Shown piece by piece: positions 5,501-28,214 of a stretch of DNA of 64,000 bases. The notes below the pieces were generated by a model. It did not search any database. It was not told where the DNA came from and saw only the letters and a list, made by a program, of their open reading frames with translations. The stretch is from NCBI RefSeq assembly GCF_004214895.1, contig NZ_CP035952.1, forward strand, positions 4,536,501-4,600,500, read 5' to 3'. Made by a program: the position numbers and the translations under genes. This DNA comes from Pseudomonas tructae. GTDB taxonomy: Bacteria; Pseudomonadota; Gammaproteobacteria; Pseudomonadales; Pseudomonadaceae. The stretch's first letter is position 1. Every line of letters starts with the position of its first letter.

Positions 5501-6685
5501 ATGCTCACTGCAATCAAAGGCTACTCGGCACAGGTGCGCCTGCTGCTGCTCACGACCTTCATCCTTACCTTGGCCCGTGCAATCACCCTGCCCTACCTGG
5601 TGGTCTACCTTGCGCAAAACTTCGCCCTGGACATCAGTGGCATCGGCCTGATGATCGGTGGCGCCTTGATTGTCGCCTCGCTGCTGAGCCTGTACGGCGG
5701 CTACCTGATCGATACCCTGCGCAGCTACACGGTGATCATTGCCGCGACCCTGGTCTTTACCCTGGCGTTTGTTGGCGCGGTGGTGAGCCGTGAACTGAGC
5801 CTGTTCTTTATCTGCCTGGTGCTGATCAACCTGGCGCTGGCGGTAGTGGATATCGCCGCCAAGGCCGGTTTCTGTACGCTGCTACCGTTGGATGAGCGCA
5901 GCGAAGTGTTCTCGATCAAGTACAGCCTGAGCAACGTTGCCTACGCGGTCGGGCCCTTCGTCGGCGTGGCGCTGGTGTTGCTGGACGATCACTTGCCGTT
6001 CTTGCTTTCGGCGCTGCTGGGCCTGGCCATGTGCCTGTGTTACCAGCGCTGGGGCGAGCGCTCGGCGCCAGCACGGGTCGAAGGCAGCGAGCAGGCCGGG
6101 TTTCTCAGTGTCGGCGTGCAGCTGGTCAAAGACCGCCGACTGATCTGCTTCACCCTCGGTGGCGCTCTCAGCGCCGTGGTATTCGGCCAGTTCACCGCCT
6201 ACCTGTCGCAGTACCTGGTGGTCACCAGCAGCGCCAGCGAGGCGGCGCGCTACATCAGCTACCTGGTGGCCACCAACGCCGTGACGGTGATTGCCCTGCA
6301 GTACGTGATTGGTCGGCGCATCAGCAGCCGCCAGTTGATGCCCTGGCTGATGGCCGGCATGGCACTGTTCCTGATCGGCCTGCTGGGCTTCTCGCTGGCC
6401 CAGTCGCTGCTGGTCTGGTGCCTGGCGATGCTGGTGTTCACCCTTGGCGAGATCATCGTCATCCCGGCCGAGTACATGTTCATCGACAGCATTGCCCCGG
6501 AGCATCTGCGTGGGGTGTATTACGGCGCGCAGAACCTGTCCAACCTCGGCGCGGCGCTGGGCCCGGTTATCTGCGGCTTTGCCCTGGCGCATCTGGTGCC
6601 GGTGGCGACCTTTTACCTGTTGATTCTGTCGGTGCTGCTGGCGGCGCTGTTTTACTACCTGGGGGCTCGGCGAACGCCACAGTAA
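5501..6685 (+). CDS. MFS transporter
   Basis: A 394-residue major facilitator with twelve predicted helices. The order is typical: N-terminal half with RAITLPYLVVYLAQNF, a short cytoplasmic loop (YQRWGERSAPARVEGSEQ), then a second six-helix half with EIIVIPAEYMFIDSIAPE and GVYYGAQNLSNLGAALGP. The conserved loop-8 type residues resemble MdtH-like drug exporters, but the substrate is unknown. It is preceded by a separate promoter region and followed by a REP pair, so it is probably monocistronic. Confidence 0.82.
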   Translation: MLTAIKGYSAQVRLLLLTTFILTLARAITLPYLVVYLAQNFALDISGIGLMIGGALIVASLLSLYGGYLIDTLRSYTVIIAATLVFTLAFVGAVVSRELSLFFICLVLINLALAVVDIAAKAGFCTLLPLDERSEVFSIKYSLSNVAYAVGPFVGVALVLLDDHLPFLLSALLGLAMCLCYQRWGERSAPARVEGSEQAGFLSVGVQLVKDRRLICFTLGGALSAVVFGQFTAYLSQYLVVTSSASEAARYISYLVATNAVTVIALQYVIGRRISSRQLMPWLMAGMALFLIGLLGFSLAQSLLVWCLAMLVFTLGEIIVIPAEYMFIDSIAPEHLRGVYYGAQNLSNLGAALGPVICGFALAHLVPVATFYLLILSVLLAALFYYLGARRTPQ

Positions 6686-6687
6686 AG

Positions 6688-6742
6688 CATCGCGGGGCAA
6701 GCCCGCTCCCACAGGTTGTGGGAGCGGGCTTGCCCCGCGATG
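6688..6742. repeat. REP pair (inverted palindrome)
   Basis: Two head-to-head copies of CATCGCGGGGCAAGCCCGCT separated by CCCACAGGTTGTGGG form a near-perfect 55-bp palindrome just 2 bp after the MFS stop codon. This is the REP unit shared by intergenic sites throughout the window; on RNA it would form a long stable hairpin. Confidence 0.9.
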
Positions 6743-6910
6743 AGTCCGTTACCGACCGAGCACAAAGAACCCACAACCAGCAGCGACAAATCGCAATGTT
6801 GTAAGTGTTTTCTGTCAGACCGTTCTGAATCATACTTCCGGCGCCGTTGCTCTGTTGTGCCATGCCTTTCATGGACCTAGGCTGCTGTCGTCGTTGGAAA
6901 ATCCAATGAA
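6743..6910. other. Intergenic region upstream of the DUF3077 leader
   Basis: These 168 bp hold no gene. CATACT at about 6831-6836 could serve as a -10, but no matching -35 stands out. A short hairpin, CCATG-CCTTT-CATGG, lies near 6861-6875, and TTGGA-AAA-TCCAA sits near 6894-6906. The transcription start for the downstream leader is probably within this stretch. Confidence 0.35.
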
Positions 6911-7082
6911 CGGATTTAGCAGTCCGAGAATGACAGAGATCTACGAACACCCCTGTTATGGCGGTTGTACGTGGGGCACCTTCGGGTGCGCCGGTTCTCT
7001 GTCACCGGTCTGCTAACCCGCGTACAGCTGCCACCTTTCGTTTAGCAGCGAAAGATGGTTGCGCCACTGACAGAGGTTACCC
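6911..7082 (+). ncRNA. Structured 5' leader RNA of the DUF3077 gene (candidate cis-regulatory element)
   Basis: Several nested helices are visible. A hairpin CGGA-TTTAGCAG-TCCG spans 6911-6926. A 13-bp stem pairs 6959-6971 with 7021-7033, with two G-U pairs. Inside it are GCACC-TTCG-GGTGC (6976-6989) and CCGGT...ACCGG (6991-7008), giving a three-way junction. A further hairpin CTTTCG-TTTAGCAG-CGAAAG spans 7035-7054. The junction strand CTGCTAA (7010-7016) is complementary to the TTAGCAG of both equal loops, so alternative pseudoknots are possible. The element ends 28 nt before the DUF3077 start codon. I do not recognise a named RNA class; a cis-regulatory role is inferred from structure and position. 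Confidence 0.6.
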
Positions 7083-7382
7083 ATGAAGAAAATCGTCCCC
7101 GATCCCCCTAGTCTCGACTTGACCAAGACAATTACCGCGAGCATATCGTTCGGCACCAACCGCATGTTCAGTGTTCGCGAAGGTATACCCGCCGAAGAGG
7201 CCCTGCTGCACGCCGGCCAACTACTGCGCTGTGCCGAAGCTACGGTGAGCGATGCGCTGGATCATCTCACTCTCAACGATCGCTCAATCGTCGCTGGTGC
7301 CGGCCAGAATATCGAGACTGCCCGCGCACTGATCGATGCTGTGATTGATGGGAGTGGTGTACAACGGATTTTCTCAGCCTAA
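7083..7382 (+). CDS. DUF3077 family protein
   Basis: A 99-residue protein matching the Pseudomonas DUF3077 pattern: a short variable N-terminus (MKKIVPDPPS), then FGTNRMFSVREGIPAEEALLHAGQLLRCAEATV, then a helical tail ending ARALIDAVIDG. The C-terminal half looks entirely helical and soluble; there is no signal peptide. Function is unknown for the family, and Pseudomonas genomes usually carry several paralogues. The start is supported by AGAGG 9 nt upstream. The gene is preceded by the folded leader at 6911-7082 and followed by a REP pair, so it is a one-gene unit. Confidence 0.75.
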   Translation: MKKIVPDPPSLDLTKTITASISFGTNRMFSVREGIPAEEALLHAGQLLRCAEATVSDALDHLTLNDRSIVAGAGQNIETARALIDAVIDGSGVQRIFSA

Positions 7383-7385
7383 AAG

Positions 7386-7450
7386 CATCGCGGGGCAAGC
7401 CCGCTCCCACAAAGGCGGCGAACCAGTGGGAGCGGGCTTGCCCCGCGATG
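7386..7450. repeat. REP pair
   Basis: Two inverted copies of the REP unit (CATCGCGGGGCAAGCCCGCT and its complement) separated by about 25 bp, beginning 3 bp after the DUF3077 stop codon. It probably forms the 3' hairpin of that transcript. Confidence 0.9.
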
Positions 7451-27678: not shown

Positions 27679-27851
27679 GAGGTTCTCCGCAAACCACTGT
27701 CGGCCGACCCGCAACGAACGTGGCAGCCCATGGCTGCACAAAGGGCGCGAAGGAATCGGCGTGACAGATGAATGGATATGGCAGACGGAAAACGCGCAGG
27801 GCTGCGGCACAGGCCGGAGGAACCGCGCATCACCCTCCGTGATGCCGTTGA

Positions 27852-28054
27852 CTGTTACAGGCCGGTCTCCGGGCTTGTGAGCGGGGTCATGAACACCCGG
27901 GGCCGCGCGCCTTCCCGGGGTTACGACCCCAGTGGCCCTGCGCAGCCTTGACTCACTTACCGTTGCGGGGGCAGCGCCGGATTCGCGCGCCCTGCGCGCC
28001 CACCGGCTTCCCTGTTTCACCCTGCCAGGCCACAGCCTGCAGAGCACCTGAAAC
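27852..28054 (-). promoter_or_regulatory. Cobalamin (B12) riboswitch
   Basis: On the minus strand the conserved B12 box AGCCCGGAGACCGGCC lies at 27875-27860. Upstream of it are AATCCGGCGCTGCCCCCGCA (the conserved core with GCCACTG later) and a GTTTCAGGTGCTCT beginning near 28054. This matches the cobalamin aptamer and precedes cobO by about 175 nt. Between aptamer and gene, a hairpin GCATCAC-GGAGG-GTGATGC (27845-27827) puts a Shine-Dalgarno sequence in its loop and a start codon in its stem, a likely expression platform. B12 binding should lower expression of the operon. Confidence 0.95.
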
Positions 28055-28214
28055 AAGTCGCGAAGGTTAGAGGGTTGCACCCGGAGCGTCAATGAAAGGC
28101 GCTGAACTGGCCTGGATCAATGGCGCCTTTGTCATCTTGTGCAACACTGACTTCAGTGATATCAAATAGCCACAATCTCGGCTGTACTCGATCACAACTA
28201 CAAGGGAGAGCAGC

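Follow-up and report, generated by a model that had tools for sequence, protein, structure and literature searches.

The window, a stretch of 64,000 nucleotides of the Pseudomonas tructae chromosome, carries at positions 7083-7382 a gene for a 99-aa protein, and the genes on either side of this cassette resemble those of an MFS transporter and a kinase (by eye from the open reading frames). The protein matches two Pfam families, DUF6124 (PF19619, 37.9 bits against a gathering score of 27) and DUF3077 (PF11275, 26.7 bits). The gene is preceded by a structured leader, and the cassette as a whole is bracketed by inverted repeats which we take to be REP sequences. The features, in window coordinates, are the following.

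6684-6742, strand not assigned: REP-type inverted repeat before the cassette (repeat matches between the flanks)
6855-6883, plus strand: predicted sigma-70-type promoter, TTGTGC (6855-6860), 17 nt, TAGGCT (6878-6883) (recurrent spacing)
6877-6930, plus strand: c4-a1b1-like upstream target region, with hairpins at about 6890-6909 and at 6911-6926 (RF03163, below the gathering score)
6911-6926, plus strand: upstream hairpin CGGA-TTTAGCAG-TCCG (sequence)
6915-6922, plus strand: upstream loop TTTAGCAG, target of the junction strand (sequence; duplex -8.7 kcal/mol)
6931-6939, plus strand: upstream TGACAGAGA, target of the loop strand (9-nt complement of 6996-7004; duplex -13.8 kcal/mol)
6954-7038, plus strand: C4 antisense RNA (RF01695, 82.5 bits, cut-off 45, E 1.1e-14)
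6959-6971/7021-7033, plus strand: outer stem of the three-way junction, 13 bp (sequence)
6960-6961, plus strand: GG, predicted RNase P 5' end of C4 (GG site kept)
6976-6989, plus strand: inner hairpin 1 (sequence)
about 6990-7009, plus strand: inner hairpin 2 (sequence)
6995-7004, plus strand: loop of hairpin 2, with the ribosome-site-complementary strand TCTCTGTCA at 6996-7004 (sequence, duplex energy, specificity tests)
7010-7016, plus strand: junction strand CTGCTAA, complement of TTAGCAG in both flanking loops (sequence)
7035-7054, plus strand: downstream hairpin CTTTCG-TTTAGCAG-CGAAAG, with the loop TTTAGCAG at 7041-7048 (sequence)
7068-7076, plus strand: TGACAGAGG, Shine-Dalgarno and loop-strand target, 6 nt ahead of the ATG at 7083
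7083-7382, plus strand: candidate regulated gene, 99 aa, DUF6124/DUF3077, N-terminus MKKIVPDPP (hmmscan)
7386-7450, strand not assigned: REP-type inverted repeat after the cassette (repeat matches between the flanks)

All elements of the structure that had been predicted from the sequence, including both flanking hairpins, the outer stem, the inner hairpins and the CTGCTAA strand, are confirmed at these coordinates. The Rfam alignment lengthens the outer stem to 17 bp (6959-6975/7017-7033). The leader between 6890 and 7100 has a folding energy of -83.9 kcal/mol (z = -4.9), and none of 200 shuffled sequences was as low.

The original prediction had placed this RNA in no named class. In fact, its central part matches the C4 family, and the region before it gives a weaker match to RF03163, the "a1, b1 targets of C4 antisense RNA" (6877-6930, 35.3 bits against a gathering score of 46.7, E 3e-7); this gathering score is reached by 6 of 16 other loci scanned. 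No riboswitch family among the Rfam models matches within 6700-7300, and isrK (RF01394) has no match in the window. By its sequence and fold, the leader is a member of the C4 antisense RNA class in a new setting rather than a novel riboswitch. Elsewhere in the window, riboswitch matches were obtained for Guanidine-II at 1827-1878 on the plus strand (RF01068, 38 bits, cut-off 32) and for Cobalamin at 27843-28066 on the minus strand (RF00174, 102 bits).

Structural conservation was examined in 138 loci, comprising the 111 C4s of five genomes (the own genome, G000, together with G003, G005, G097 and G104) and 27 top-scoring C4s from other genomes, a set which was found using the C4 model and is hence biased towards C4 structure. 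Stem pairs are kept in 96.3% of cells compared with 87.2% after column shuffling, and at least two standard pair types occur at 23 of 27 stem pairs; compensatory double changes were found at 14 of 28 pairs in an alignment of 25 sequences. The RNase P-type GG is retained at 137 of the 138 loci. The proposal that the leader of the DUF3077 gene (more precisely, a DUF6124/DUF3077 gene) is a regulatory RNA is supported.

Two strands of the C4 element are concerned in the predicted pairings: the loop sequence of hairpin 2 (the loop strand) and 7010-7016 (the junction strand). The hairpin-2 loop CTCTGTCA matches TGACAGAG, which occurs twice, once upstream and once across the Shine-Dalgarno of the gene. 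Complementarity between 6996-7004 and 7068-7076 extends over 9 nt including one G-U pair (duplex -12.5 kcal/mol), and the junction strand forms a duplex of -8.5 kcal/mol with the downstream loop at 7042-7048. Both target words are found, in the same order, on either side of the three-way junction. Because the loop strand also matches the upstream and Shine-Dalgarno sites, the junction strand can be viewed as half of a two-part contact, and it is the coverage of the Shine-Dalgarno by the second strand that makes sense of the mechanism. The original prediction saw the junction strand correctly and overlooked the one in the hairpin-2 loop that reaches the Shine-Dalgarno. Its competition of two loops for one strand reflects a real complementarity, which in homologues tends to locus specificity; the loops, however, would be the two target sites of an antisense RNA encoded between them and not parts of a pseudoknot switch. 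Likewise, of the shared ligand or small-RNA target that it envisaged, the latter comes close and the ligand finds no matching riboswitch family.

A downstream target of at least 5 nt for the junction strand is present in 106 of the 111 loci of the five genomes. At 101 of these 106, a count made without a shuffled control, it lies within a hairpin loop whose closing stem has 3 bp or more, which suggests that the downstream hairpin is a general feature. When C4 was cofolded with its targets, no stable complex was obtained with a program that cannot score kissing loops.

The specificity of these pairings was assessed by scoring the strands of each C4, without gaps, against the sites of every locus within the same genome and by permuting the partners. 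For the loop strand and the ribosome region, z was 4.3 in G000 (n=6), 5.2 in G003, 4.0 in G104, 16.2 in G005, 17.0 in G097, 16.4 in G062 and 17.3 in G111; the score with the own ribosome region exceeds all permutations in the last six genomes and equals the permutation maximum in G000. The junction strand and the downstream hairpin gave z of 3.5 (G000), 5.2 (G003), 4.4 (G104), 14.2 (G005), 13.5 (G097), 15.7 (G062) and 15.7 (G111). The upstream 75 nt also match the own strands (z = 2.7 to 13.4). Here, both strands top all permutations in five of the seven genomes, the loop strand alone does so in G104 and neither in G000 (n=6), the junction-strand scores of G000 (18.3, maximum 18.8) and G104 (17.5, maximum 18.2) lying inside the permutation range.

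For individual loci, the cognate site ranks top with loop and junction strands combined in 6/6 cases in G000, 9/10 in G003, 8/10 in G104, 32/42 in G005 and 33/43 in G097, and by this combined score the C4 of the window finds its best target, out of the six loci of its genome, in its own locus. With the loop strand alone the cognate is top in 24/42 (G005), 28/43 (G097), 19/47 (G062) and 23/45 (G111). At least seven consecutive Watson-Crick pairs with the own ribosome region are found at 68 of the 111 loci of the five genomes, with 66 distinct matched words, compared with a mean of 6.2 and a maximum of 11 for random partners in 200 draws; the other 43 loci have no such 7-nt match. Separation was weaker under a loose start-codon rule (cognate strictly best in 13/37 for G005 and 17/38 for G097) and with RNAduplex over a 105-nt window (13/42 and 18/43, respectively). 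Taken at the level of sequence, C4s tend to fit the ribosome site of their own locus. Locus pairs within one genome whose loop strands are 85% or more alike do occur (one each in G003 and G104, five in G005, two in G097 and four in G062), and some copies may be decayed or engaged in cross-talk.

The promoter-like pair at 6855-6860/6878-6883 lies 32 nt before the upstream loop, and we infer a transcription start near 6890. A start after 7033, which would have spoken against the predicted structure, is unsupported. Pairs of the type TTGn3-N16-18-TAn3T, a pattern selected after inspection of some of the same loci, are located 15-95 nt 5' of the upstream target at 103 of 137 distinct loci, compared with 3.5 expected from shuffles, and 28 nt is the commonest distance to the target. 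A generic promoter scan at its own threshold returned none at the window leader.

A terminator is present between the upstream target and C4 at 25 of the 138 loci (5 of 138 in shuffles), and none was found at the window locus. Loci with such a terminator can match isrK: L012, L014 and L041 do so among 16 loci scanned, as do two of five further loci scanned, L143 from another genus and L191 on a viral contig. Since the window has neither a terminator nor an isrK match and its upstream match is below threshold, the attenuation arm of the mechanism discussed below may not apply there. An upstream reading frame running through C4 was considered and rejected: the frame of the ATG in C4 is in phase with the gene at 39 of 111 loci, the one third expected by chance. 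The frame from this ATG reaches the gene in 50 of 111 loci (a count without control) and a further 10 loci have no such ATG. In the window, the 28-aa frame from the ATG at 6930, which ends in the junction strand, has no Pfam match.

The linkage of C4 to this protein family is extensive. The five genomes have 96 distinct DUF6124/DUF3077 genes, and 82 of these are preceded by a same-strand C4 no more than 1,200 nt away. Conversely, such a gene is located downstream of 80 of the 111 C4s (five of six in the own genome) and none within 1,200 nt for the remaining 31. The 99-aa protein has 22 relatives at E <= 0.001 and at least 157 confirmed relatives in named genomes, the nearest among the matches listed for these being that of Pseudomonas donghuensis HYS (95%). 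Of these relatives, 80 named-genome loci, picked by protein similarity alone, were retained, and 79 have a C4 upstream according to the model built here (the miss is L330). No solved structure is related to the DUF protein by sequence. A DUF3077 gene, PP_RS01475, is listed as one of those mutated in evolved, furfural-tolerant Pseudomonas putida (PMC9630843).

Among the 114 proteins of at least 40 aa that follow the 138 C4s, 74 fall into two DUF6124/DUF3077 clusters; other families of first proteins include 13 starting with MNRYMPL or similar, 13 of 52-57 aa, and nine that cluster together, the one tested among them having matches to Bro-N and phage antirepressors. In the window, the gene behind C4 encodes a DUF6124/DUF3077 protein and not a phage antirepressor; antirepressor control is a historical association from P1/P7 and no defining feature of C4. 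The 52-57-aa protein is the first gene after C4 at 13 of the 138 loci (L012, L013, L014, L020 and nine others), all 13 of which have a terminator before C4; the one member scanned has no Pfam match. At L012, a DUF3077 gene lies about 500 nt after C4, behind the gene of this small protein.

P[DN]PP occurs near the N-terminus of 67 of 95 and 55 of 77 start-placed proteins (from sets of 111 and 92 loci, respectively) and, being written in 54 different 12-base words, looks kept at the protein level. The N-terminus M-x-K-x-x-P-[DN]-P-P is carried by many DUF6124/DUF3077 proteins and also by a member of the Bro-N cluster (L086), which gives it the look of a module that goes with the C4 leader.

Of 149 genomes of the genus that were searched, the own included, 138 have a C4 (the best candidates, up to 27 per genome, being scored). 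Elsewhere in the class, where 15 candidates were scored, the count is 17 of 273 genomes. The own genome has six C4s whose pairing words are mostly different. At E <= 0.001, the other genomes scored in depth have 42 (G005), 43 (G097), 47 (G062), 45 (G111), 10 (G003) and 10 (G104), of which 39, 42, 47, 45, 10 and 10 are above the Rfam cut-off. In Pseudomonas the cassette appears to have expanded to a large number of channels, most of them distinct. The record of Pantoea sp. Ap-967 (L351) has two C4s and a DUF relative otherwise found in Pseudomonas, and is perhaps mislabelled.

The MFS-like neighbour has its closest counterpart (96%) in the genome of L162. There the cassette, with an identical C4, lies behind the MFS-like gene, and the stretch examined beyond it contained no kinase-like gene. 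In five other relatives (L163-L167), the same two neighbour genes are adjacent and the cassette is absent. The flanking REP-type repeats may have helped the cassette to move or recombine. A second cassette of the own genome (L006) presumably also has a REP-like repeat, with a RAYT-like open reading frame nearby.

The relationship between leaders and proteins was followed in G062 and G111 (92 loci, at 74 of which a protein of 50 aa or more could be placed). Of the protein pairs at least 80% identical, none of 50 within a genome and 17 of 61 between genomes (14 identically) share a loop strand at an identity of at least 0.8 (Fisher 1.9e-5, the pairs not being independent). An earlier sample, partly chosen by C4 score, gave 0/39 within and 11/17 between. 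By sequence comparison, nearly identical proteins encoded in the same genome have leaders with different codes. Exact copies of a loop within a genome are found beside missing or cut-short genes (L088/L089 and L056/L060).

In 27 positional pairs between G062 and G111, assigned by their flanks, loop strands are identical in 13 and at least 0.8 alike in 17; mean identity was 0.92 for C4 (n=27), 0.88 for the upstream region and 0.88 for the coding sequence (n=19). Loops differ in 10 of the 27, and in some of these, tandem clusters have probably led to mismatched partners (L279-L289 is an example; L287-L289 match fully). An earlier set of 13 orthologous pairs had given 0.98 for the upstream region, 0.99 for C4, 0.94 for the coding sequence and 0.72 downstream, values that are partly circular since the pairs were picked by identical loop strands. 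The notion of leaders frozen at each locus is weakened by the flank-only check with its 10 differing pairs; with 13 of 27 identical and 10 differing, the locus code is often, not always, kept. Gene conversion is suggested as one cause by 4 of 16 same-loop pairs in which the coding sequence is closer to a paralogue.

Relatives are also carried by 40 loci on viral contigs (L192-L231), many of them near-duplicates and one (L226) on the contig of L191. C4 is present at 38 of the 40 (L208 and L212 are the misses). For 34 of the 40, a contig end is no more than 3 kb away, so that many may represent host flank; the other six lie deeper. At L215 (3155-5653), a P2-like tail operon harbours a C4-DUF6124 cassette, flanked by a gene resembling that of a tail assembly chaperone (below the Pfam cut-off) and by the tail sheath gene. 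These loci link the cassette to phages, in whichever direction it may have travelled. At L230 (3752-5399), also on a viral contig, about 130 nt separate a C4-DUF3077 unit from a following Abi_2 (PF07751) gene, and a C5 cytosine methylase is encoded in the vicinity. The window protein gave no match to phages or plasmids in tblastn searches; when phages were searched with two other family members, one had a single match at 35% identity and one none, and one DUF6124 member had no match among plasmids.

Several known systems resemble this arrangement. C4 of P1/P7 (RF01695), which controls ant, shares the three-stem junction, the two strands for the ribosome site and a nearby upstream site, the GG processing site and the match to the covariance model. 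RNase P is described as trimming it to about 77 nt, and its two loops as binding the target around the ribosome site (PMC5320573). Unlike this phage element, the locus studied here is chromosomal, between the MFS-transporter-like and kinase-like genes, with DUF6124/DUF3077 instead of ant, and it is one of six copies (across the seven genomes scored in depth, the number ranges from 6 to 47). The P4 immunity region (seqA, CI RNA, seqC) likewise has an antisense RNA between upstream and downstream copies of its target, CI RNA being reported to pair with seqA and seqC on its two sides and to cause termination (PMC4825925). P4 thus works by termination, whereas the window lacks a terminator and 25 of 138 loci have one; the comparison with P4 is by description only. 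In Gifsy-1, the isrK-orf45-anrP region (RF01394) combines an upstream RNA, a complementary stretch and a ribosome site, with STnc1160 as a possible counterpart of CI/C4; the window differs in having no isrK match and a DUF6124 gene instead of orf45-anrP. IsrK, termed a structural homologue of SeqA, is stated to open in trans the translation of its read-through mRNA (PMC4825925).

The 21 Group 1 C4-like sRNAs of Acinetobacter baumannii are also similar, with many chromosomal copies, a variable pairing loop and processing from longer transcripts, and several C4-like RNAs per genome had already been reported there (PMC5320573). Their targets are not known according to the sections of that report consulted, whereas in Pseudomonas, with up to 47 copies, the adjacent gene is the likely target. 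The same source mentions that the C4 motif was predicted in Pseudomonadales in 2010. In the open-licence literature, judged by title and the start of the abstract, no description of a Pseudomonas C4 array was found.

It is proposed, with good confidence, that the leader encodes a C4-type antisense RNA which silences the adjacent DUF6124/DUF3077 gene. This proposal is supported by sequence statistics: family membership, both pairings, the tendency to locus specificity, promoter position and gene linkage. Silencing, processing, decoy or attenuation, and release are modelled on P1, P4 and Gifsy-1. Since the order of upstream target, C4 and ribosome-site target is the same as in the known systems, we infer translational silencing with an upstream decoy. 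The promoter at about 6855-6883 would drive one transcript that includes the upstream target, C4 and the ribosome site of the gene, from which C4 would probably be excised by RNase P at 6960. Its hairpin loop would then pair with the Shine-Dalgarno and its junction strand with the loop of the preceding hairpin, blocking translation. The upstream target, as a second copy of both sites, could titrate C4 in the manner of an IsrK-like decoy. Alternatively, at loci with a terminator, C4 may attenuate its own operon as in P4; by analogy, attenuation is likely confined to such loci. More transcription of the leader, or a competing RNA, would free the gene.

Other explanations account for part of these observations. 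A ligand-sensing riboswitch, with the two loops and the junction strand forming alternative pseudoknots in one RNA, would agree with a single strand complementary to both loops and with the very stable fold. It is hardly credible in view of the C4 score of 82.5 bits and the absence of riboswitch families there, and because a ligand pocket would be conserved whereas 66 distinct words were found at 68 loci and the conserved parts are plain stems; this identity was dropped, the loops varying among loci. It is also unlikely that the cassettes are decaying remnants of prophage immunity with no host function. The phage ancestry of C4, the nine of 138 loci whose proteins cluster with a Bro-N/antirepressor-matching protein, the cassette in the tail operon at L215, the intact neighbours without a cassette at L163-L167, the 10 of 27 positional pairs with a changed loop strand or wrongly paired loci and the C4s with broken or missing genes (e.g. 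L060, L088 and L113) would all be expected of such remnants. However, both pairings persist, as do the promoters and most of the reading frames. At positional pairs, the conservation of C4 (0.92, n=27) is no lower than that of the coding sequence (0.88, n=19), and the copies number 42-47 in four genomes and occur in 138 of 149.

A type I toxin-antitoxin-like function, with C4 as the antitoxin of a harmful small protein, is a minor possibility. The small size of the protein, antisense control at the ribosome site and the many copies would suit it, as would the isrK region of Gifsy-1, a P4-like arrangement reported to control a toxic output (PMC4825925). The proteins seen here, however, are mostly of 75-130 aa and do not have the short, hydrophobic look typical of type I toxins. 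It seems quite improbable that the C4s act mainly in trans on incoming phages or satellites with C4-type switches, the linked protein being incidental. C4 RNA does underlie P1/P7 heteroimmunity (as described in PMC12197685) and such a role has been proposed for the Acinetobacter copies (PMC5320573), but the words fit the ribosome site of the adjacent gene far better, on average, than those of other loci.

The silencing of adjacent genes by C4 would place a regulator known from phage immunity in a large, chromosomal, multi-channel set within one genus, and would give two uncharacterised families, DUF6124 and DUF3077, a concrete regulatory setting. It raises the question of why some 40 silenced, often similar proteins stay on separate lines. 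As a speculative answer with little probability behind it, the array could be an RNA-addressed phage alarm or a means of superinfection exclusion, with up to 47 largely privately addressed switches per genome, many of which would keep a similar small protein silent and which together would sense many incoming phages or satellites; if so, an a1b1-like or matching RNA of the invader would soak up one C4 and its protein would be turned on. Moreover, the Pseudomonas array suggests a kind of target for the C4-like sRNAs of Acinetobacter, and dozens of antisense-target pairs per cell would constitute a natural library for tests of RNA specificity.
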